From a virus, in the IMG/VR virus record IMGVR_UViG_3300027851_000045, positions 1 through 47,205 of that record: a DNA stretch of 47,205 nucleotides, one strand, 5' to 3'. The position numbers were made by a program, and so were the translations under genes. This document shows positions 15,072 to 37,119 of the stretch, piece after piece (within the stretch, counting starts at the first letter, position 1; every line of letters starts with the position of its first letter). The notes beneath the pieces were generated by a model. That model was given only the letters and a program-made list of their open reading frames with translations. It was not told where the DNA came from and ran no database searches.

Positions 15072-15791
15072 ATGAACATCCAGCCTATTGAGAAGCGCCG
15101 CGAGAGCGACGGTTCCACCATCGAAGTCCATTCGGTCTTCAACACCATCCAGGGCGAAGGCCCTTTCACCGGGCACGCTGCTGTCTTTATCCGCTTGGCA
15201 GGCTGCAATCTGCAATGCCCCGCCTGCGATACAGACTACACGACGGATCGCTGGAACTCCACACCGTTCGCCCTGTTGCAGTTCGTGCAAGAAATGCGCC
15301 AATCGCCTTCGCTTGTGGTCATCACGGGCGGGGAACCTTTTCGCCAGAACATCCACCCGCTCGTTGAGCTGCTTCTTGCAGAAGGTTACACGGTACAGAT
15401 TGAAACGAACGGCACTCTGCCTCCGCCCACCCTCGGCTTCGCGGAACTGTGTTCGCTCGATACAAACGAGCGGAATCGTTGCTTCGTTGTGTGTAGCCCC
15501 AAGGCGGGTCGCGTCAATCCCGCCACTGCGTCGCTTGCATGTGCCTACAAATACGTGATGGCGCATGACAGCGTTGATTCAGACGGTCTTCCACTGCTCG
15601 CGCTTGACCACAGTGCGTCGCCTCGTGTTGCTCGCCCTCACGAAGGGTTCAAAGGAACGATCTATCTGCAACCCTGCGACGACAAAGACGACGTCGTTAA
15701 TCAAGCGAACTTGCAAGCGTGCGTGAATTCGGTGATGCTGCACCCTTACGTCTTGCAGTTGCAAGTCCATAAAATTATCAACATGGAGTGA
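15072..15791 (+). CDS. queE: 7-carboxy-7-deazaguanine (CDG) synthase, radical SAM
   Basis: It converts carboxytetrahydropterin to CDG by radical SAM chemistry, the third step of preQ0 synthesis. In the 239-aa product the iron-sulphur cysteines form C45-x3-C49-x2-C52 (GCNLQCPACD), the typical radical SAM spacing. FNTIQGEGPFTGHAAVFIRL is the QueE N-terminal signature, TGGEP (85-89) binds SAM, and IETNGT follows. The ATG at 15072 is chosen because the longer frame to 15024 would cover the stem-loop leader. It is the first gene of the queE, gat-queC, queD, folE set. Confidence 0.95.
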   Translation: MNIQPIEKRRESDGSTIEVHSVFNTIQGEGPFTGHAAVFIRLAGCNLQCPACDTDYTTDRWNSTPFALLQFVQEMRQSPSLVVITGGEPFRQNIHPLVELLLAEGYTVQIETNGTLPPPTLGFAELCSLDTNERNRCFVVCSPKAGRVNPATASLACAYKYVMAHDSVDSDGLPLLALDHSASPRVARPHEGFKGTIYLQPCDDKDDVVNQANLQACVNSVMLHPYVLQLQVHKIINME

Positions 15792-15793
15792 CT

Positions 15794-17170
15794 ATGTGCT
15801 CAATCATAGGCGCACTGGTGCGGCGCATTGATACGCACCAAAAGATTCAGGCGGTGAATGACATTCTTGAGCACATCTGGCAAACCAGCCATGAGCGTGG
15901 GCGCGATGGACGAGGGTTCGTTATCAACTCCAGCGCAGAGAGCGAGTTGCTGGCCTACCGCGAAGTGACACGAAGCAACGGTCGCGCAGTGCGTGCCCCT
16001 GCGTTGCACAAGGTCTGCCGCTCCGCTGCTGTTGTGGGCAACCTTCGCGCCGAACCGACTACTGAGTTCGTTCAAGAGAAGCGACTGTCTGATCAGCAAC
16101 CTTACACCTCCGGAAAATGGTCGATTGCACATAACGGGACGATTGCAAACGACAGGGGCCTTCGCACGCACGATCTTCCCACCAGTATTGACAGCGCAGC
16201 GATCGCCGAGCAGCTGGCGAATGTGCATGGCACGATGGGCGACTTTGTGGAAGTAATTGGCAAACTGCGCGGCAGCTACGCAATTCTGGCGACGCACAGT
16301 GACCACACTGACAAGCTGTTCGTCGCTGCGAATTACCGTCCGGTCTGGTACATTGAGACGCCTTACGGGGTGTTCTTTGCAAGCTCACGCAACTACCTGC
16401 CTCAGGAATACCCGTCACGCATGTTGAAGCCTTACACGGCCGCGCTGTTCGACAGTAACGTCATGAGCAAGGAAGTGAGCCTGTATCGCGACACGGTGCA
16501 AGGTGAGCGGGCGCTGGTCGTGTGCAGCGGCGGCCTGGATAGTGTGGTCAGTGCAGCTTACGCACAGCGCGAACTTGGAATGGACATCCATCTGATCCAT
16601 TTCCTGTACGGCAGCAGGGCTGAGGGTCCGGAGGTCAAAGCTATCCAAGCGGTGGCGGGGTTCCTGGACGCCGAGCTGACGCTGTTCAACCTTCCTGTCT
16701 ATTCGAAGGATGATTCCCCGTTGCTTGACCCTGACAGCAAGGTGGCGGGAGGCGAAGCTGGCGCTGAGTTCGCTCATGAATGGGTTCCCGCCCGGAACCT
16801 GCTGCTCCTGTCCGTTGCAACTGCATTCGCAGAAGCACGCGGAATTGACACCATCGTTCTCGGTAACAACCTTGAGGAAGCTGGTGCCTACCCTGACAAT
16901 GAACCCGAGTTCATTTCTCGCTTCAATGACCTGCTCCCGTTTGCAGTTGGTGATGGAAAGCGAATGCGGGTTATTATGCCCGTCGGCAACCTTATGAAGC
17001 ATGAGATTGTTGAACTTGGAAACCGTATCGGCGCTCCCATGCACTTAACCTGGAGTTGCTACCGCGCCGGTGAGCTGCACTGCGGAACCTGTGGCCCGTG
17101 CTACATGCGACGCAAGGCTTTTGAAATCAACAACCTTCCCGAAGTCATTTCTTACAAGGACGAACAATGA
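15794..17170 (+). CDS. Glutamine amidotransferase-QueC fusion (Gat-QueC)
   Basis: A 458-aa two-domain enzyme. Residues 1-225 are a class II (Ntn) glutamine amidotransferase: Cys2 nucleophile (MCSIIGA), GRDGRGF, NLRAEPTTE and AHNGTIAN. Residues 235-458 are QueC (preQ0 synthase): PP-loop SGGLDS (245-250) and zinc cysteines at 422, 430, 433 and 436 (SCYRAGELHCGTCGPC). Archaea with this fusion use it for archaeosine synthesis, and phage 9g, which has dG+ in its DNA, encodes one. The ATG at 15794 is the correct start: it places Cys at position 2 and has GGAG upstream. The GTG at 15788 would bury the nucleophile. Confidence 0.93.
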   Translation: MCSIIGALVRRIDTHQKIQAVNDILEHIWQTSHERGRDGRGFVINSSAESELLAYREVTRSNGRAVRAPALHKVCRSAAVVGNLRAEPTTEFVQEKRLSDQQPYTSGKWSIAHNGTIANDRGLRTHDLPTSIDSAAIAEQLANVHGTMGDFVEVIGKLRGSYAILATHSDHTDKLFVAANYRPVWYIETPYGVFFASSRNYLPQEYPSRMLKPYTAALFDSNVMSKEVSLYRDTVQGERALVVCSGGLDSVVSAAYAQRELGMDIHLIHFLYGSRAEGPEVKAIQAVAGFLDAELTLFNLPVYSKDDSPLLDPDSKVAGGEAGAEFAHEWVPARNLLLLSVATAFAEARGIDTIVLGNNLEEAGAYPDNEPEFISRFNDLLPFAVGDGKRMRVIMPVGNLMKHEIVELGNRIGAPMHLTWSCYRAGELHCGTCGPCYMRRKAFEINNLPEVISYKDEQ

Positions 17171-17637
17171 AACGAACTGCAGAACGCTACCACGACATCA
17201 GCACAGGGCACCGCGTCGTCGGGCATGAGAACAAGTGCCGCCATCTTCACGGTCACAACTACCGGATCCACTTCGTCTGCGAAGCTGCGGAACTGGACAC
17301 CGTCGGACGTGTCATTGACTTCGGTGTCATCAAAGAGAAGCTGTGCATGTGGGTCGAGAAGCATTGGGATCACAAGTTCCTGGCATGGAAGAGCGATCCG
17401 GTGATGCAGAAGGTTATCGCTTCCAGCGCACATCTGGCTGAGGTGTATATGCCCAAGGAAGAAAAGGACATGCTGACTGAATCTGTTGTCTTCGTTCCGT
17501 TCAATCCGACGGCAGAGAACATGGCCCAGCACTTGGTCGAAGTAATTGGCCCGCAGCAACTCGCTGGCACTGGTGTGACGCTGGTGTCTGTTCGTATTGA
17601 GGAGACTGCAAAGTGCTCCGCATCTTTCCACGCCTAA
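17167..17637 (+). CDS. queD: 6-carboxy-5,6,7,8-tetrahydropterin synthase
   Basis: A 156-aa PTPS-family enzyme making the QueE substrate from dihydroneopterin triphosphate. Zinc ligands are His15 (STGHRV), His28 and His30 (HLHGHNY); Cys24 (KCRH) is the catalytic cysteine. NPTAENMA near 117-124 and the C-terminal ETAKCSASF are family motifs. It overlaps gat-queC by ATGA and is followed after 10 bases by folE, whose AAGGAG site spans its stop. Length and motifs are normal. Confidence 0.95.
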   Translation: MKRTAERYHDISTGHRVVGHENKCRHLHGHNYRIHFVCEAAELDTVGRVIDFGVIKEKLCMWVEKHWDHKFLAWKSDPVMQKVIASSAHLAEVYMPKEEKDMLTESVVFVPFNPTAENMAQHLVEVIGPQQLAGTGVTLVSVRIEETAKCSASFHA

Positions 17638-17647
17638 GGAGCACCCC

Positions 17648-18553
17648 ATGCAAATGAAACTCACTCACGATCAAGTAGGCGGCCTTGTGGGCCGTTTGGC
17701 GGTCGCGCTCAACACCTATGCCAACCAGCAAGCGATCAACGTGCTGCGGGCCTACCCTGTGCCGCGTGGGGGCGTTCCCGTCGCGTATGCTCTGCAGAGC
17801 TTGGTCCCGATGGTACTGGTGGAGAACCCCGCCGAAGCGGACGTCTTTATCGACGACCTGATTGACAGCGGTTCGACCTGCGAACGCTACTGCGACGAGC
17901 ATCCGGGAGTTCCGTTCTTTGCGCTGCTGGACAAACGCACCGACGAACAGTTCAAGGATCGGTGGATCGTGTTTCCTTGGGAAGTCACCGATGACGGTGC
18001 AGATGCTTCCGGGAATGATATCATTGTTCGCCTGCTGCAACTGGTAGGCGAAGACGCCGATCGCGAAGGGCTTCAGGAGACGCCCGCTCGTGTGGTTAAA
18101 GCGTGGCGCCACTGGTGCAGCGGCTACGGCAAAGATCCTGCCAAGCTGCTCAAGGTGTTCGAAGACGGCGGAGAGACTTATGACCAGATGGTTCTCGTCA
18201 AAGACATCCCCATCTATTCACACTGCGAACATCACCTCGCAGCTATCATCGGAACCGCGTCCATCGCGTACATCCCGAACGGCAAGATTGTCGGTCTGAG
18301 CAAGCTGTCCCGCTTGGCAGATATGTTCGCTCGCCGGCTGCAAGTGCAGGAACGACTCACCGACCAGATTGCTGACGCACTGTTTGAAAACCTGCAACCG
18401 AAAGGCGTTGGTGTGTTGATTAAGGCACGTCATCTGTGCATGGAATCGCGGGGCATCTGCCAGCAAGGCCACCACACTGTAACCACAGCTCTCCGCGGCG
18501 TCATCAAGGACGAACCGGAAACTCGCGCTGAGTTTCTGCGTCTTTGCGACTAA
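17648..18553 (+). CDS. folE: Phosphoribosyltransferase-GTP cyclohydrolase I fusion
   Basis: A 301-aa protein in two parts. Residues about 1-118 resemble xanthine-guanine phosphoribosyltransferase: YPVPRGGVPVAYAL (36-49), the PRPP loop VFIDDLIDSGST (66-77) and a closing WIVFPWEV. Residues about 122-301 are GTP cyclohydrolase I, with zinc ligands Cys193 and His196 (SHCEHHL) and Cys264 (RHLCMESRG), and CQQGHHTVTTA at the end. FolE makes dihydroneopterin triphosphate, the entry point to preQ0. The start is the ATG at 17648 with AAGGAG 7 bases before. The fused domain may salvage guanine or a deazaguanine base, but its substrate cannot be read from sequence. Confidence 0.92.
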   Translation: MQMKLTHDQVGGLVGRLAVALNTYANQQAINVLRAYPVPRGGVPVAYALQSLVPMVLVENPAEADVFIDDLIDSGSTCERYCDEHPGVPFFALLDKRTDEQFKDRWIVFPWEVTDDGADASGNDIIVRLLQLVGEDADREGLQETPARVVKAWRHWCSGYGKDPAKLLKVFEDGGETYDQMVLVKDIPIYSHCEHHLAAIIGTASIAYIPNGKIVGLSKLSRLADMFARRLQVQERLTDQIADALFENLQPKGVGVLIKARHLCMESRGICQQGHHTVTTALRGVIKDEPETRAEFLRLCD

Positions 18554-18593
18554 TCCATAGTTCGACAGCAATCGGGCTGCAAGGCGCTACAGG

Positions 18594-18643
18594 CGACGAT
18601 CGACTTGTTCAATACAAGTACGAGGACGACAAGTCGATCGTCG
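18594..18643. promoter_or_regulatory. 15-bp perfect inverted repeat between folE and the transglycosylase gene
   Basis: Arms 18594-18608 and 18629-18643 (CGACGATCGACTTGT and its reverse complement) are separated by 20 bases. The left arm can also pair over a 5-base loop with a second ACAAGT at 18614-18619, giving two mutually exclusive hairpins. No T-run follows, so it is not a plain terminator. It could be an RNA switch or processing site in a folE-dpdA transcript, or a dimer-binding operator. The surrounding 18554-18713 has no gene. Confidence 0.55.
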
Positions 18644-18681
18644 AAAGACTTATAAATCAAGTAGTTACGTCCGCCTGGCGC

Positions 18682-18690
18682 TGGTAAAAT
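18682..18690 (+). promoter_or_regulatory. Extended -10 promoter before the transglycosylase gene
   Basis: TGGTAAAAT is a TGn extended -10 element, 23 bases before the ATG at 18714. The -35 region (TAGTTA) is poor, as is common for extended -10 promoters. Confidence 0.45.
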
Positions 18691-18713
18691 ACAGGTCAGC
18701 GAAAGGAGGTCTT

Positions 18714-19637
18714 ATGAACATTTTCATGGCTGCACTCTATACCAACGGTTATAGAAAAGGCCAGAACCGATACGTGAAACTGAACGAGCATGAGCAAAGA
18801 TTAGTTCAGGCAGTACCGCACGTTCTCGAGTCGTATCACTACATCGGATCGCAGCGTTTCCTTGATCAGATGCGAGCGGACGATGCTCGCGTATTCCTGG
18901 ACTCGGGAGCGTTCTCTGCTTACACGTTGGGCGTTGAAATTGACTTGCCCACCTATTGCGAATATATCAAACGGAACATGGATCTCTGGAGAGTTGAAGA
19001 CGGTGTCGTGATGGCATCCGTGCTGGACGGCATTGGTGACCCGCTGAAGACATACCAGAACCAACTCCACATGGAGCAACTCGGCGCGAAGCCGCTCCCC
19101 TGTTTCCACGCGGGTGAGGATGAGCGTTATCTAGAATACTATGTCCAGAACTACGAATATATCACTCTGGGCGGTATGGTGGGCAGCTCTACGAAGCAGC
19201 TCTGTATCTGGTTGGACCGCATGTGGGAGCGTTACCTTACGGACGGAAGCGGTCGCCCGCGGTTGAAAGTGCATGGCTTCGGTATCACTGCGATTCCCAT
19301 CATGGAGCGATATCCATGGTACAGCGTGGATTCGTCCTCCTGGATTCAATCCGCTGCATTCGGCAGCATCATCACCCCAGAATGGGGGCCGTTGTCCGTG
19401 TCAGAGAAGAGTCCAAGCAGGCATGACGCGGGACAACACGCAACGACCCTGACCGCTATCGAGCAGGACTATGTCTTGCAGATGCTAGAAAAGCAGGGTT
19501 TCACCTACGAACGATTATCAAGTGTCTATGAATCGCGTGCCGCCTATAATTTGTGGGCCTTTGGTGTAATCAATGAAATGATGAACGCCGCCAACAACTA
19601 CGAACAATTCACGCATCGCGTGCAGGAGCTTTTCTAA
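18714..19637 (+). CDS. dpdA: DpdA/TGT-like DNA 7-deazaguanine transglycosylase
   Basis: A 307-aa TIM-barrel transglycosylase-like protein that would exchange guanine in DNA for a 7-deazaguanine. Motifs line up with tRNA-guanine transglycosylase. VFLDSGAFS (Asp63) corresponds to the DSGGYQ catalytic motif, SVLDGIGDP (Asp105) to the base-recognition Asp, and TLGGMVG (151-157) to the LAVGE-type loop. The CxCxxC...H zinc site of TGT is not visible, so this is a short phage-type member. The start has AAAGGAGG at ideal distance. It follows the complete preQ0 gene set and precedes the clamp and polymerase genes directly. The link to DNA rather than tRNA is inferred from this context. Confidence 0.87.
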   Translation: MNIFMAALYTNGYRKGQNRYVKLNEHEQRLVQAVPHVLESYHYIGSQRFLDQMRADDARVFLDSGAFSAYTLGVEIDLPTYCEYIKRNMDLWRVEDGVVMASVLDGIGDPLKTYQNQLHMEQLGAKPLPCFHAGEDERYLEYYVQNYEYITLGGMVGSSTKQLCIWLDRMWERYLTDGSGRPRLKVHGFGITAIPIMERYPWYSVDSSSWIQSAAFGSIITPEWGPLSVSEKSPSRHDAGQHATTLTAIEQDYVLQMLEKQGFTYERLSSVYESRAAYNLWAFGVINEMMNAANNYEQFTHRVQELF

Positions 19638-20597
19638 ATGCTTACAGAACTCAAGTTTGTGCAAGGTGCAGTCTCCAAGAAGGATTTCGTTCCCGCGCTG
19701 ACGCACTTTGTAATCGAGGGTGGAACCGTTCGCGGTTATAACGGGATGCTCGGGCTGTGCAGCCCTATTCCGTTTGATATCGAGTGCAAGCCCAAAGCTG
19801 AGTCGCTTGTGAAAGCGATTGCCAACTGTACCGAGACCGTCCAATTGGCACTCACACCAGCAGGCCGACTGTCTGTGAAGAGCGGTAAGTTCAAAGCCTT
19901 CGTTGATTGCTTACCGGATGAAAGCACACCGCACGTCCAGCCGGAAGGTGAGCATGTGGTCATTGACGGTGCGGCCATGTTGCAGGCGTTGAAGGTTGTG
20001 GCGCCGTTCATTGGTGACGACGCTTCCCGCCCATGGTCGAACGGCGTTCTCCTGCTAGGGCAGAGCGCGTTCGCTACCAACAATATCACGCTCGTTGAAT
20101 ACTGGACAGGTTCTACGGTGCCCCGCCCACTCAACATCCCTCGCGCAGCGATCAAGGAATTGCTCCGCATTGACGAAGCTCCGGAAGCTGTGCAGCTTAC
20201 CGAGAATTCCATCACATTCCATTTCAGCGGGAAGCGGTGGCTGAGGACGCAACTGTTCGAAACCAAGTGGCCTGACCTCACCAAAGTGCTCAACCGCGAA
20301 AGTGATCCAAAGCCTTTGGACGAACGCCTGTTCGAAGCTCTTAAGACATTGAAACCATTCGTTGGCAAAGACGGTCGCATCCTGTTCCGTGGCGCTGGTA
20401 AAATATCCACCCATGACGACGAAACTGAAGGGGCTGGATATGAGATTGACGGGTTTGACCACACTGGCGTCTATCACATTGACATGCTGAACTTGCTCAA
20501 CGGAACTTGCAAGTTCATCGACTGGTCTGCATACCCGTCGCCGTGTATGTTCTTCGGTGACCGTCTGCGCGGCGCGATTGTTGGGATGCGTCAGTAA
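19638..20597 (+). CDS. Sliding clamp-like DNA polymerase processivity factor
   Basis: A 319-aa protein whose opening (LTELKFVQGAVSKKDFVPAL) and repeated beta-rich blocks (FVIEGGTVRGYNG, ITFHFSGKRWLRTQL, CMFFGDRLRGAIVGM) resemble DnaN-type beta-clamp subunits of phages. It starts immediately after the transglycosylase stop, and its stop shares a base with the polymerase start. The neighbouring family B polymerase is the obvious client. The family call rests on pattern and context rather than on a sharp motif, so structure prediction would settle it. Confidence 0.68.
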   Translation: MLTELKFVQGAVSKKDFVPALTHFVIEGGTVRGYNGMLGLCSPIPFDIECKPKAESLVKAIANCTETVQLALTPAGRLSVKSGKFKAFVDCLPDESTPHVQPEGEHVVIDGAAMLQALKVVAPFIGDDASRPWSNGVLLLGQSAFATNNITLVEYWTGSTVPRPLNIPRAAIKELLRIDEAPEAVQLTENSITFHFSGKRWLRTQLFETKWPDLTKVLNRESDPKPLDERLFEALKTLKPFVGKDGRILFRGAGKISTHDDETEGAGYEIDGFDHTGVYHIDMLNLLNGTCKFIDWSAYPSPCMFFGDRLRGAIVGMRQ

Positions 20598-22621
20598 TGG
20601 CGAGAGCTGACATCGCGGGGTTTTTCTGGGACGACACCCCTCCACCAAAACCTCCCAAGGCAGAGAAGCCCAAACGCACACCGCCCGAGCGCACTTGGGA
20701 ACGCCCAGACTATCTGCCTGGGCTGCATGACGCGCTGGCATTCCGCGTTCCGCAGTTTGAGGACTGGGAACTTGCGATTGCTGCTGCAAAGCGCGAACGG
20801 TTCGTGTTCGATATTGAGTGCTACTGCAATTATTTTCTGATTGCTTTCACGTCGCTTGCAAGCGGAAAGGTAATCTATTTCGAACGCACAGCGAACCATG
20901 ACTTCAACCGAGATAAGTTGCAATGGATTGTCAATACGTTCTGCCTTGTGAGCTTCAACGGTTGGAACTATGACATCCCAATCCTGTCCATGGCGCTGGC
21001 GGGGAAGACCAACGCACAACTAAAAGCAGCAACAAACGAGATCATTGTGAATGGCACACGCCCATCGGACGTCTTGCGTTCGTACAAGGTGAAAGGCATT
21101 AAGCCGAATCATATTGACTTGATTGAGGTTGCACCGCTTCGCGCCAGTTTGAAGATCTACGGTGGCAGATTGCACGCCCCGCGGATGCAAGATTTACCGT
21201 TCCATCCCGAGACCATGCTGTCACCCGAGCAGATGGCGATCGTTCGCTGGTATTGCGTTAATGACTTGACAAACACTGCCATTCTACATGAGTCACTGAA
21301 GGAGCAACTCGATCTTCGCGAAAGCATGGGGCTTGAGTACAAGATGGATCTGCGAAGCAAGTCCGACGCGCAGATTGCTGAGGCTGTTATCGCGGAAGAG
21401 ATTGAACGCCTGAACGGGGCACGCGCCCAGCGTCCGATCATTGAACCCGGAACTCGCTACAAATACAAGATCCCACACTTTATCAAGTACCAGTCCCCGC
21501 TCATGAACTGGGCGCTCGATGTTGTGCGTAATGCCAACTTCATTGTGAGCGAAGACGGGAACGTCGGTATGCCCGAGGAGCTGAAGGCGCTGCGCCTGGA
21601 GATGGCTGGCGCAGTGTATCGGATGGGTATCGGTGGCCTGCACAGCTCCGAGCAATGTGCCGCGCACTATGCCGACGCCAACACGCTACTCATTGACCGC
21701 GACGTGACGTCCTATTACCCGTATATCATTCTGAATCAGAGTCTGTACCCGCAACACTTGGGGCCCAACTTCCTTCGCGTCTATCGCACACTGGTTGAGC
21801 GCCGTATTGCAGCCAAGCACGCGGGCAACAAGGTAATCGCTGACTCGCTCAAGATTACCATCAACGGGTCATTCGGCAAGCTGGGCAGCAGGTACTCCGT
21901 CCTCTACGCGCCCGACCTGCTGATTCAGGTGACAGTGACGGGCCAACTATCGTTACTGATGCTGATTGAGCGCCTGGAGCTGGTTGGAATCAATGTGGTT
22001 AGCGCAAACACGGACGGCATCGTTATCAAGTGCCCCACAGCACGCCAAGCTGAATGCGACGCCATTGTGAAGCAATGGGAAGTTGATACGGGCTTTGAGA
22101 CCGAGGACACACAATACCTCGCAGTCTTCAGCCGGGACGTGAATAACTACATTGCAGTCAAGAAGAAGTTTGACAAGCAAGCGAAGCAGTGGCTCTACGA
22201 GGCTGACGGTTGCAAGACGAAAGGTGCTTACGCAAAGACGGGTCTGCAGAAGAACCCGACGAACCAGATTTGTGTCGATGCTGTGCTGGAACTGCTTACC
22301 AAGGGCACGCCGATCATGACCACAGTGCGCTCTTGCGTTGATGTACGGAAGTTCGTGTCCGTGCGTACTGTGAAAGGTGGCGCGGTGAAGGACGGTCAAT
22401 TCCTCGGGAAGTCCATCCGCTGGTATTATGCAGCAGGTGAGCAGGGTGAGATTGTGTATGCGGACAGCGGGAACAAGGTTCCGCGCTCGGAAGGTGCAAA
22501 GCCCTTGATGGACTTGCCTGCACTGTTCCCGCAAGACATCGATTATGAATGGTATGAGCGCGAGGCGGAGCGGATGCTCTACGATATTGGCTACCTGCAA
22601 AAGTCACCCGAACAAAAATAA
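20597..22621 (+). CDS. Family B DNA polymerase with 3'-5' exonuclease
   Basis: A 674-aa replicative polymerase. Exonuclease motifs: FDIEC (Asp72, Glu74), FNGWNYD (120-126) and YCVND (219-223). Polymerase motif A is DVTSYYP (369-375), motif B KITINGSFGKLG (419-430) and motif C ANTDGI (470-475). Motif C is NTDG rather than the usual DTDS, so the first Asp is Asn while the second is kept. The N-terminal 35 residues are Pro/Lys-rich and may be a flexible clamp-binding tail. It is short for the family but has all core motifs. It must read and copy a template containing 7-deazaguanine bases. Confidence 0.93.
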   Translation: MARADIAGFFWDDTPPPKPPKAEKPKRTPPERTWERPDYLPGLHDALAFRVPQFEDWELAIAAAKRERFVFDIECYCNYFLIAFTSLASGKVIYFERTANHDFNRDKLQWIVNTFCLVSFNGWNYDIPILSMALAGKTNAQLKAATNEIIVNGTRPSDVLRSYKVKGIKPNHIDLIEVAPLRASLKIYGGRLHAPRMQDLPFHPETMLSPEQMAIVRWYCVNDLTNTAILHESLKEQLDLRESMGLEYKMDLRSKSDAQIAEAVIAEEIERLNGARAQRPIIEPGTRYKYKIPHFIKYQSPLMNWALDVVRNANFIVSEDGNVGMPEELKALRLEMAGAVYRMGIGGLHSSEQCAAHYADANTLLIDRDVTSYYPYIILNQSLYPQHLGPNFLRVYRTLVERRIAAKHAGNKVIADSLKITINGSFGKLGSRYSVLYAPDLLIQVTVTGQLSLLMLIERLELVGINVVSANTDGIVIKCPTARQAECDAIVKQWEVDTGFETEDTQYLAVFSRDVNNYIAVKKKFDKQAKQWLYEADGCKTKGAYAKTGLQKNPTNQICVDAVLELLTKGTPIMTTVRSCVDVRKFVSVRTVKGGAVKDGQFLGKSIRWYYAAGEQGEIVYADSGNKVPRSEGAKPLMDLPALFPQDIDYEWYEREAERMLYDIGYLQKSPEQK

Positions 22622-27735: not shown

Positions 27736-28463
27736 TGAAACACCCCTGTGAGGTTATAGTGACCGATCGTGTTCAAACTATTTGGATTATACACAGCCAG
27801 CGTTGGCCCGCCAACGTCCAAATATCCTATTCCGACATCAAGCTCCGCTGGAACACATCCGCCCAGAGTTGCTGCACCAGTAGCCAAAGCACCTTGACTG
27901 ACCTGAATATCGCTACCTTCGGCCGTTAGATAGTCTGCACCGTTATTGACAAATAATTCGCCAGGAATCGGTTCCTTCGCAAAGCGGAACGGTTTATCGC
28001 GGAAGGATACTGCAACCGGAACAGTACAGATCGCAGCAGGTGACAAATCCTGCATCGCCGCCTGGATCTTGTAATCAACAAAGAATCCATTCGTGAAAAG
28101 CAAAGCGGTGGCAGGGTACGTCTCCAGATACTGACAGTCGGTTGGATCCGTAAGGAACTTCAGACCCTGAATCAGATCGCTGGGCGTACCCTTAGAGATA
28201 TTCACAAACACGCGGAACTTAATGGCCACACGATACGCATCATCATCACGGCCAGCACGCGCCTCGCCAACAATGTATCCGCAGCCGTCCAACTGCGCAC
28301 CGATCGCGGTATCGATCCAACGGTCAGCAATCAAGGCGTCAGCGTCCGTTTCCAATGTGGTTAAAGGCCCCACAATCTGCGCCATCAATTCCTTCAACTT
28401 GGGCGAGTTTTCAAATTGCCCTGTTAGACGCGGTACAGCGATAGAAGCGTAATCAAGCATCAT
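27732..28463 (-). CDS. Baseplate protein, DUF2612-like
   Basis: A 243-aa protein. Its N-terminal half carries the DUF2612 pattern (LKELMAQIVGPLTTLETDAD, then RWIDTAIGAQLDGCGYIVGE and ARAGRDDDAYRVAI). The family lies between baseplate J and the fibre genes in many myoviruses and is equivalent in position to P2 gpI/Mu gp48-type proteins. Its start (ATGATG) overlaps the baseplate J stop by one base. Confidence 0.88.
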   Translation of the reverse strand: MMLDYASIAVPRLTGQFENSPKLKELMAQIVGPLTTLETDADALIADRWIDTAIGAQLDGCGYIVGEARAGRDDDAYRVAIKFRVFVNISKGTPSDLIQGLKFLTDPTDCQYLETYPATALLFTNGFFVDYKIQAAMQDLSPAAICTVPVAVSFRDKPFRFAKEPIPGELFVNNGADYLTAEGSDIQVSQGALATGAATLGGCVPAELDVGIGYLDVGGPTLAVYNPNSLNTIGHYNLTGVFQ

Positions 28464-29890
28464 TAAACTCCAACAACCGTGATTCGTGCTTCGTCAAAGG
28501 TTGCAAGCTCCGCACGCGCCACCGCCACGTTTGCAGTGCTATAAGACGGTGTGTCGGTAATCAGTGCAGTAATTGCAGCTTCAACGGTAATGGAACCGAT
28601 GCCACTTGTCGCAGTGTAAATCGGCCCATAGAATCGTTGCGTAATGATGTCTTCGCCAATACCGATTGTTGCGCCGTAGTTGAACACAGCGGTCTTGATT
28701 GCTTGAACAACTTCGCTCGTAAGGACTTCCTCCAAGTTGAGCGCATTCACACTCACTCGGATCCAGGCGAACTTGCTTACAGGGCGAGAGAACTTGCACA
28801 ACTGCACATCACCATTCTCATCCAGAACTTGAATGCTTGTATTGCCGTAAGTCTCAATTCCAGCGGGCTTTACTTCGAACAGTTTGTCAGCGACCGCCTG
28901 GTCCAGACCGCCATTTACAACCGCTTCAAATGAATGCGGCGGAAGGTTGAACGCATCAATCGCATTCGTTCGATTCTCGTAGATTGCGCAGTACGTGGCG
29001 GAATCTACTTCGGCCAGCACACGCGACCGGATTGCTTGTGCTGTTGCTGCACCAGTTACCCGAACGCTATTGGCGTGGCGCTCGCGCAGCTCCTCATCGG
29101 TTTCAGTGAAGCGACCCGTTGAACCTGCAACAAGGTTATTGATTTCATCCCATCCAACGACGGAGCTATCAATGCGGGTAAGCGCAGCAACGGGCAACGC
29201 ATAAGCTCCCATTTCCAGGCCCGTGAATACGACAGGGGTTCCGAGCTTTGTGATTGTCAGCTTGCTATCCACGGTCAAAGTGAAATCGCTATACTGGTCA
29301 GCTGCACGCAAACGAAGCACACCATTGTCAGCAGTCGCCAAGAAGCTATTAGTGTCGAACAATGCAGCAAGTCCCGCGGCAATCTCTGCCGCCGTTGCGC
29401 TGGCGTCTGACGTATAGACCACACTGACACCGTTGGCGATCACTTGATAGTTTGCGACGTTCGAGACGGTATTCGGTTCAATAAGTACGTCGCCGGAACT
29501 CGAACGGCTGATAACGGTATCTGCCGTTGTGACGTACTGGCGATTATCGAGCGAGCGTGCAAGGGCACCAGCGGGGATCAACGTGCTTTCAGTACCGTAG
29601 CACATGGCCACAACCGTTGTTGGCGCAGCAGAGAGGCGCTCCAGCCCCACAAACGACACCGCGCCGTCTAGCGAAGTACCTTCCGCGCTGAACGGGTACA
29701 TGCTGTCATAGGTGTTCTGAAGTGCTTCGTAAGCGTCGTCCAGCGCCGCTGCAAAGATACCAATGATCTGTCCGACCACAGCATCGGCGTTCGTATTCAC
29801 TGGGCCCAGCGCATCAGTAAAACGCTGGTCGTAATCCGCCTTGATCTCGGTGAGACGCGGACGCTCGAAACCTTGTTGAGTCAGGCTCAT
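28463..29890 (-). CDS. Baseplate J-like wedge protein
   Basis: A 475-aa baseplate wedge protein. The opening GFERPRLTEIKADYDQRFTD, the alternating beta-rich middle and GRFTETDEELRERHANSVRV near residue 255-275 are characteristic of gpJ-like proteins. It sits between the gp25-like and DUF2612 proteins, the standard wedge order, and overlaps both neighbours by 1-4 bases. The length is typical. Confidence 0.93.
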   Translation of the reverse strand: MSLTQQGFERPRLTEIKADYDQRFTDALGPVNTNADAVVGQIIGIFAAALDDAYEALQNTYDSMYPFSAEGTSLDGAVSFVGLERLSAAPTTVVAMCYGTESTLIPAGALARSLDNRQYVTTADTVISRSSSGDVLIEPNTVSNVANYQVIANGVSVVYTSDASATAAEIAAGLAALFDTNSFLATADNGVLRLRAADQYSDFTLTVDSKLTITKLGTPVVFTGLEMGAYALPVAALTRIDSSVVGWDEINNLVAGSTGRFTETDEELRERHANSVRVTGAATAQAIRSRVLAEVDSATYCAIYENRTNAIDAFNLPPHSFEAVVNGGLDQAVADKLFEVKPAGIETYGNTSIQVLDENGDVQLCKFSRPVSKFAWIRVSVNALNLEEVLTSEVVQAIKTAVFNYGATIGIGEDIITQRFYGPIYTATSGIGSITVEAAITALITDTPSYSTANVAVARAELATFDEARITVVGV

Positions 29891-30289: not shown

Positions 30290-30977
30290 TCGGAGCCCCC
30301 GTATTACCAGCGCCGGGCTGAACGCCGCTGTGAGTGTGCGTCCCGTCAATCTTCTTGCCAAGGCTGGTAATGCTGCCCGCGGTATGCACAAGGTTTCCAC
30401 TGATTGCAGTGCCGTTGGCGCCACCGGAACCCGCAAGCCCGTCCTGATAAGTAAGTTTCCCTTGTGTGGTCAGCGTTCCAGTGTTCGTCGTTGCAGGTGT
30501 GTCGATATTGGTTCCGCCCGGAGCATGAATGTTCAACGCCCCACCTTCTGTCAGTCTAATGTAAGCTGCGCCGAAGAACATCGTCATGTCGGCATTGTTG
30601 CCGCTGTCACCTGCTCCCGCGTTGCCCAGGTCGCACATGACCGCATAGGCATCCTGAAGGTCAAACATACGTCGATCGTCTGTGCCATCGACCGCTTGTT
30701 GGGAGAACACCAGTAAGCAACGATCGCCAGGCTTGACTGGCCCTTTGATTCCTGCTGCCCCGCCTGCAAACGAAGGCCAGCACACGCGCACATTCGGAAT
30801 AATCGGATAGTCCAGCACGTCCCCATCCGCGAACCGTTTCTTCGGTGTTGGTGCAACACGGGCAAGACCGTTCTCGTATGATACGACCACAGCAGGCAGC
30901 GCGGTATTTACGTCCAAGAGTTGTGCTCGCACCAGCCCCATGAGCGCGTCAATCGGGTTGTTTGATGTCTCAGCCAT
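30282..30977 (-). CDS. Baseplate central spike protein (Gp138/gpV-like)
   Basis: A 231-aa protein with an N-terminal OB-fold region (NTALPAVVVSYENGLARVAP ... LDYPIIPNVRVCWPSFAG, then KPGDRCLLVFSQQAVDG) as in Gp138-N/gpV spikes. The tail is Gly/Thr-rich beta-helical, ending THTHSGVQPGAGNTG. The HTH motif can bind metal at the tip of such spikes. It punctures the outer membrane during contraction. The ATG at 30977 overlaps the hub gene stop (TAATG). Confidence 0.88.
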   Translation of the reverse strand: MAETSNNPIDALMGLVRAQLLDVNTALPAVVVSYENGLARVAPTPKKRFADGDVLDYPIIPNVRVCWPSFAGGAAGIKGPVKPGDRCLLVFSQQAVDGTDDRRMFDLQDAYAVMCDLGNAGAGDSGNNADMTMFFGAAYIRLTEGGALNIHAPGGTNIDTPATTNTGTLTTQGKLTYQDGLAGSGGANGTAISGNLVHTAGSITSLGKKIDGTHTHSGVQPGAGNTGAPNA

Positions 30978-35790: not shown

Positions 35791-37119
35791 TTAGAGTTCG
35801 TATGCCAGGGCACCAGTGATTTCCACAACGTGGATCGCACCAGCAAGGCGGGCCGTAAAGCCGAGCGACAGGACGCGGGACGCCTTGATGCTCGGAGCCA
35901 GTTCAACGGATCGCGGATACGTGATAACGAAGCCTGGAACCGTGTTGTTACTGGCGTCCAATTCGTCGGGCGCAATACCGCCCACGTTCTGGCCTTCCTG
36001 CAACGACTTCCGCAGGTTATTCACGCACAGTTGAATCCCCGCGTCGGTGTAAGGCACCTTGTCGCGGTTGATCATCATCTGCGTCATATTGACCTGGATG
36101 GTATCTTTCAACCAGTCGCGGAAGCGGATGACGTCAATCCATTCGCCCGCAGAAACCTTGCCAGGATTCGTCAGAGCGATCTGTTCTTGGTAGAACTCGA
36201 ACGTATTACCGCCCTTATTGACCACAGTCTGCTTCTGCGTGCTGGTCAGCGGTGACGGGGTCACGCTTGCCAGTTGCTTCAGCGCCCAAGTTTCACCGCC
36301 AGGCTTGATGGTGAATACACGACCGGCCCAAGCTGCATCAGGGTATTCGGTAGCGGCGTTCGTGTGGAACAGAGCTGCCGTGCGATAGTACCGCGTATTC
36401 TTCAGCACGCTCAGAAGGTCGGTAGCGAGCGACGGGTTCAACACGTCAGCTTCATCCGTTGCAGTGATGAACAAGCGGTCATTCGCTTCGGTCCATTCCG
36501 CTGCATCGAGCTGAGTTTGCTTCACGCGCTCAACCATCACCAAGCCATACCAGCGGTTATCCTCGTCCAGAATTGCGTTGAGGTCGTCCGCAACCGCGGA
36601 AGCTGCTGCCAGCGGGGTAATCGTGCCCCATTGTAGGTTCGTCAGCAGATCCACAGAGCCCACGGTGCTGATCCACGCAATTTCCAGCGTGTCGCCGACT
36701 GCCGTTGCAGTGATGGTCTCGTCGGTATCGCCCGTGATTGCAAGCGCAAGGCCTGCAACGATTTCAGCAGCGGTAGGCGTACCGTCTGCCGTGTAGCTGT
36801 ACGTCTGGCCATCCACCTTCATGGAGTAGGTGCCCAGCGCAATCAAGCTGGCAACCTCCACCACCGCCTTCAGCACAGCGCGACGACCGACCTTCACTTG
36901 TCGCGGACGCGGAATCTGACCGAAGCAGTCGGACAGCGCAGTCAGCAACTTAGGCGGCAGATCGTCTTCGGCCGCAGCGTTGTAACTGGTATAAACACGG
37001 ACACGCTCAGGGAAGGTCATCAGCGGAGCGACGATCATCGGAGTACCGAAGTCGCCTCGCACAACACCAGTCGTCTGGAGCGCGATTTGTACTGAAACAA
37101 TATCGTCAAGGGTTGCCAT
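35791..37119 (-). CDS. Contractile tail sheath protein, DUF3383-like
   Basis: A 442-aa protein. TLDDIVSVQIALQTTGVVRG, DFGTPMIVAPLMTFPERVRV and QVKVGRRAVLKAVVEV are typical of DUF3383 sheath proteins, as is the inserted domain at about 95-190 with YSYTADGTPTAAEIVAGLA. The C-terminal SLGFTARLAGAIHVVEITGA forms the handshake strand. The gene defines the myovirus morphotype. It has AAAGGAG upstream and a candidate promoter in the 29-base gap before it. Confidence 0.94.
   Translation of the reverse strand: MATLDDIVSVQIALQTTGVVRGDFGTPMIVAPLMTFPERVRVYTSYNAAAEDDLPPKLLTALSDCFGQIPRPRQVKVGRRAVLKAVVEVASLIALGTYSMKVDGQTYSYTADGTPTAAEIVAGLALAITGDTDETITATAVGDTLEIAWISTVGSVDLLTNLQWGTITPLAAASAVADDLNAILDEDNRWYGLVMVERVKQTQLDAAEWTEANDRLFITATDEADVLNPSLATDLLSVLKNTRYYRTAALFHTNAATEYPDAAWAGRVFTIKPGGETWALKQLASVTPSPLTSTQKQTVVNKGGNTFEFYQEQIALTNPGKVSAGEWIDVIRFRDWLKDTIQVNMTQMMINRDKVPYTDAGIQLCVNNLRKSLQEGQNVGGIAPDELDASNNTVPGFVITYPRSVELAPSIKASRVLSLGFTARLAGAIHVVEITGALAYEL

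Follow-up and report, generated by a model that had tools for sequence, protein, structure and literature searches.

A phage 9g-type 7-deazaguanine cassette with an XGPRT-like domain fused to FolE in a contractile-tailed phage

The gat-queC and dpdA genes of Enterobacteria phage 9g (Nonagvirus, Queuovirinae), expressed in Escherichia coli, yielded archaeosine (dG+) at about 9–18% of plasmid G, and they did so even without the host queC (PMC6884629). Like cassettes were associated with resistance to restriction in the contractile-tailed Pseudomonas phage MiCath, whose DNA resisted EcoRI, BamHI, and EcoRV (PMC10710427), and in phage Vid5, whose DNA resisted BamHI, Eco32I, and MboI (PMC6266253); for both phages these are restriction data only. 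Here, we analyzed a cassette of this kind at positions 15072–19637 of the IMG/VR virus record IMGVR_UViG_3300027851_000045 (47,205 bp; the whole of this stretch is called the window below). By every sequence test run, it is a 9g-type 7-deazaguanine system, and its open reading frame (ORF) for FolE begins with an additional domain resembling xanthine-guanine phosphoribosyltransferase (XGPRT). With a probability of about 0.74, we regard the locus as a 9g-type dG+ cassette in which the fused XGPRT-like domain recycles the guanine released by DpdA. Both the cassette type and the gene order are known, and the present cassette is a further member of the series; an earlier note on this DNA had overstated the matter. 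The part worth following is the XGPRT-like/FolE fusion.

The genes queE, gat-queC, queD, the folE ORF, and dpdA all lie on the plus strand, separated by short gaps or overlapping, directly ahead of the sliding clamp and DNA polymerase genes (table 1). This five-gene cluster, read by the earlier note from the letters alone, was confirmed in place by Pfam and PHROGs searches. The same order, with the same motifs, is found in phage 9g, and the pairwise identities to the 9g proteins were 53% (QueE), 55% (Gat-QueC), 53% (QueD), 58% (FolE domain), and 66% (DpdA). Unlike the window, 9g has a plain FolE and an extra ORF between queE and gat-queC. The order from queE to the polymerase is also common to PaMx25, Quinobequin-P09, and most closely related contigs. 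The catalytic motifs, which had been described as visible, were all found: the Gat residues are intact (Cys2, N114-G115, and D133), the QueC part keeps the PP-loop SGGLDS and a four-Cys zinc site, the QueE motif reads CNLQCPAC, the FolE domain has C193, H195, H196, and C264, all of them invariant, and H187 of DpdA aligns with the conserved H196 of 9g DpdA. The ATG at 15794 is taken as the true start of gat-queC (MCSIIG), because the catalytic Cys must stand at position 2; the GTG at 15788 chosen by the ORF finder would bury this amidotransferase nucleophile and was rejected. PADLOC detected QueC alone. With complete preQ0 genes, an amidotransferase, and a DpdA, all of 9g type, the set is self-sufficient, as had been claimed.

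In the predicted pathway, FolE, QueD, QueE, and Gat-QueC would convert GTP to preQ0, and DpdA would swap preQ0 for guanine in the phage DNA. The Gat domain would supply ammonia from glutamine to form dG+, either before or after insertion, and dG+ would shield the phage DNA from restriction. Since 9g gat-queC and dpdA make dG+, and since MiCath and Vid5 resist restriction with like cassettes, dG+ is the best prediction of the product base and a well founded one. The product is read from the Gat domain, and the main base might instead be dPreQ0 (the preQ0 nucleoside) or another intermediate, considering that 9g DpdA alone inserts preQ0 (PMC6884629) and that the DNA of phage nt-1 carries a mixture of modified bases (Hutinet 2019). 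We consider this unlikely, given the intact Gat residues in the window and the dominance of dG+ by orders of magnitude when both 9g genes were present (PMC6884629). A role outside DNA was also weighed. FolE, QueD, QueE, and QueC serve bacterial tRNA queuosine as well, and the cassette might chiefly boost that of the host; the presence of a 9g-type DpdA, and the failure of 9g gat-queC and dpdA to bring queuosine back in E. coli mutants of queC and tgt (PMC6884629), leave this reading almost no probability. For Nipunavirus DNA, no nucleoside measurement was found in the accessible literature.

What the earlier note had called folE does contain a FolE domain, and it is not a plain FolE. Residues 1–118 of the ORF make up a compact phosphoribosyltransferase (PRT) domain whose closest match is XGPRT. 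The PHROGs search flagged a phosphoribosyltransferase in the N-terminus of the ORF, while Pfam on the PRT domain of the window alone gave no significant match (E 0.2), so that its identity emerges only from family-level profiles and folds; in a single-sequence search of the PDB, XGPRT was the best match, at E 0.13. We collected 138 related PRT domains, 93 of which were left after thinning at 90% identity. Run against the PDB, a profile of 24 PRT domains matched xanthine phosphoribosyltransferase and XGPRT chains (E 1.1e-7 to 1.5e-6), which ranked above every other phosphoribosyltransferase. When the whole fusion was submitted to Foldseek, the top 50 matches were all FolE, and the PRT domain was therefore folded alone. 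The best matches of its AlphaFold2 model (pLDDT 93) were XGPRT (E 2e-6), with a TM-score of about 0.6–0.7 by query length and a high root-mean-square deviation of about 5 Å. On these values, the modeled domain is of the right fold (type I phosphoribosyltransferase, XGPRT) but trimmed.

Across the 93 relatives, conservation was strongest at the sites where XGPRT binds phosphoribosyl pyrophosphate (PRPP), pyrophosphate, and purine. These were the pyrophosphate loop P39-R40-G41-G42 (94–99%), the PRPP loop (D69 100%, D70 99%, D73 98%, S74 98%, G75 100%, and T77 99%), and the purine-contact side (K96 88% and W106 98%, followed by FPWE at 93–99%). An aspartate at the position of D73 is typical of 6-oxopurine phosphoribosyltransferases, not of the adenine or orotate enzymes. 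The domain shares with E. coli Gpt (XGPRT) the fold, the PRPP loop DDLIDSGST, the pyrophosphate loop RGG, and the purine-side Lys and Trp; unlike Gpt, to which it is about 20% identical, it is about 30 residues shorter, has no flexible loop, and is fused to FolE. No description of an XGPRT-like/FolE fusion was found in the literature searched.

The DpdA family works by base exchange, and one guanine is thus freed for each 7-deazaguanine inserted. The XGPRT-like domain could combine this free guanine with PRPP to give GMP, which host kinases would raise to GTP, the substrate of FolE; the exchange product would thereby be removed and the pathway refilled. If 27% of the 25,901 G-C pairs were exchanged (the figure for 9g as quoted in PMC10710427), about 7,000 guanines would be ejected per genome. 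Recycling would explain why the fusion partner is FolE, which uses GTP, why the fusion keeps the company of DpdA, and why it is independent of Gat. In one relative (L172, 5557–7690), PRT stands apart from FolE as a gene of its own between queD and queE, and a standalone PRT gene within a cassette favors an enzyme over a FolE regulator. Taken alone, guanine recycling by the PRT domain has, in our estimate, slightly less than even odds. Marginally more tentative is the wider proposal that a widespread bifunctional XGPRT-like/FolE phage enzyme closes the guanine loop and so pulls the DpdA base exchange forward.

The distribution of the fusion was then considered. When the PRT domain was used as the query without its FolE part, 80 viral loci were retrieved, almost all of them FolE-fused and lying in 7-deazaguanine gene sets, and among phage records, 394 had FolE while only 38 had a PRT match. 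DpdA was found near the fusion in all 46 non-redundant loci whose flanks reached 5 kb or more on each side. PRT occurred together with Gat in 9 of these loci and without Gat in 37, and in MiCath Gat accompanies a plain FolE; the presence of PRT is therefore independent of Gat. The 46 loci also bear on another possible function. Because 7-deazaguanines resemble guanine, the substrate of XGPRT, the domain might make a nucleotide from preQ0 or another 7-deazaguanine base, and the polymerase would then incorporate a modified deoxynucleoside triphosphate in place of the DpdA exchange. This seems very unlikely, as DpdA was nearby wherever the flanks allowed, phage CAjan without dpdA loses all modification (Hutinet 2019), and 9g and MiCath have the same pathway without PRT. 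One genome scan for bacterial homologues gave at least three loci. Two of these are contigs (L178 and L179) assigned to a metagenome-assembled genome of Anaerolinea thermophila; they carry a complete cassette with a clamp and a phage-type polymerase, and they are likely phage sequence binned with the bacterium.

Several points weigh against the explanation as a whole. The dG+ of the present phage is a prediction from its genes, and phages Dp-1 and nt-1, which have other amidotransferases (ArcS, QueF-L), contained little or no dG+ despite prediction (Hutinet 2019). As to recycling, the host may already possess gpt or hpt. FolE without PRT was also near DpdA in 27 of 28 cases of the same sample, because the sample was drawn around this family, and the association is thus not specific within it. 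One PRT-FolE (L031, 6001–6939) has a decayed PRT active site, with KEV in place of RGG and DLVLNTG in place of DDLIDSG. Lastly, the flexible catalytic loop, which in XGPRT precedes the PRPP loop, is missing or shortened in all relatives, for which reason we call the domain XGPRT-like and do not file it as XGPRT. The loss of this loop keeps the main rival alive, namely that the domain is no enzyme and acts as a sensor, tuning FolE through the binding of PRPP or guanine nucleotides. Its fusion to the enzyme that commits the pathway at its first step would suit such a role, and animal FolE offers a parallel, being tuned by the separate protein GFRP. However, K96, W106, and the catalytic-type D73 are kept at 88–98%, which exceeds the needs of a PRPP sensor, and the separate PRT gene of L172 also speaks against a regulator. 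We regard the sensor as the less likely of the two, and retain guanine recycling as the preferred function.

In the FolE tree, which is weakly resolved, about 10 gains or losses of PRT are needed, at least three of them forced by well-supported branches, and most deep branches include PRT. This pattern fits an old fusion that was lost several times. L031 branches with weak support beside a large group of FolE without PRT, as if its PRT domain had been caught during loss. The PRT-FolE of Nipunavirus is annotated merely as GTP cyclohydrolase, and in PaMx25 as two ORFs, one of them for a hypothetical protein that overlaps folE (L001, 8801–9731); our ORF scan read PRT and FolE in a single open frame, and the split thus seems to be a matter of annotation. 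In many fusion-bearing phages, then, the annotation "GTP cyclohydrolase" hides a second domain. A standalone phosphoribosyltransferase of Cellulophaga phage phi13:1 was considered as an unfused ancestor and was not used, the match being weak (30%, E 8e-3). It lies far from the queD, queE, and folE of that phage, in which DpdA was not found.

The 160-nt gap between folE and dpdA (18554–18713) contains a hairpin, possibly a regulatory element. In four relatives, including L013, the stem is kept and the loop is variable, and one A-to-G change still pairs (G-U). The coding DNA of L013 beside the gap is mostly 60–90% identical and is less conserved than the gap itself. In other relatives the gap is short and holds a small hairpin unlike this one, and an exact search found the hairpin only in this small group. 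A search of Rfam gave no match, and the matches of promoter and terminator scans were not above chance. The hairpin arm GACGATCGACTTGT has 15 near matches in the window against 4.6 expected (e.g., at 30667, 32728, 42367, and 46859); two near matches outside the gap were inspected, and no obvious hairpin was seen at either.

Table 1. Positions of the cassette, its domains and neighbors, and selected structural genes in the window
Feature	Position	Strand	Basis
queE, radical SAM 7-carboxy-7-deazaguanine synthase	15072–15791	+	PHROG 2076 E 3.4e-56; CxxxCxxC motif
gat-queC	15794–17170	+	PHROG 10428 full-length E 1.4e-201
Gat part, N-terminal class II glutamine amidotransferase	~15794–16490	+	Pfam GATase 4e-7
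QueC part of gat-queC	~16508–17170	+	Pfam QueC 1.7e-51
queD, 6-carboxy-tetrahydropterin synthase	17167–17637	+	Pfam PTPS 7.3e-25; PHROG 2389 7.4e-51
folE ORF (fusion)	17648–18553	+	XGPRT-like domain, then FolE domain
XGPRT-like PRT domain, N-terminal in folE ORF	17648–18001	+	Profile, fold, conserved residues
FolE (GTP cyclohydrolase I) domain	18002–18553	+	Pfam PF01227 E 3.8e-69; Foldseek FolE E 1.5e-23
Hairpin, 16-bp stem (18594–18609 / 18628–18643)	18594–18643	+	Gap fold z -2.95
dpdA, TGT-like DNA transglycosylase of 9g type	18714–19637	+	PHROG 887 E 1e-94
Sliding clamp	19638–20597	+	PHROG 947 E 4.3e-77
DNA polymerase	20597–22621	+	PHROG 1252 E 2.5e-217
Baseplate wedge	28463–29890	-	
Tail sheath	35791–37119	-	

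The structural half of the window (24230–46021, minus strand) encodes a contractile tail. The order of the replication and modification block of Nipunavirus and Queuovirinae is present in the window, while their non-contractile (siphovirus) structural module is not. A contractile structural half is thus combined with a half for replication and modification, the known relatives of which are for the most part siphoviruses; for this combination MiCath, with its Gat-QueC/DpdA cassette, is a precedent (PMC10710427). A known anti-restriction strategy is hereby extended to one more contractile-tailed phage, and the phosphoribosyltransferase fused to the first enzyme of the pathway bears on the fate of the guanines ejected by DpdA, a question that is directly testable. 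Among the described systems, the Nipunavirus phages PaMx25, NP1, and Quinobequin-P09 resemble the window in gene order, in Gat-QueC (61–63% identity) and DpdA (77%), and in the PRT-FolE fusion; they differ from it in their DNA, with an alignment that covers less than 15% of the first 24 kb and has an identity of about 75%, and in the structural half. MiCath is like the window in DpdA (77%) and in its tail sheath (36% identity), and differs from it in having a plain FolE of 186 aa with no PRT domain.

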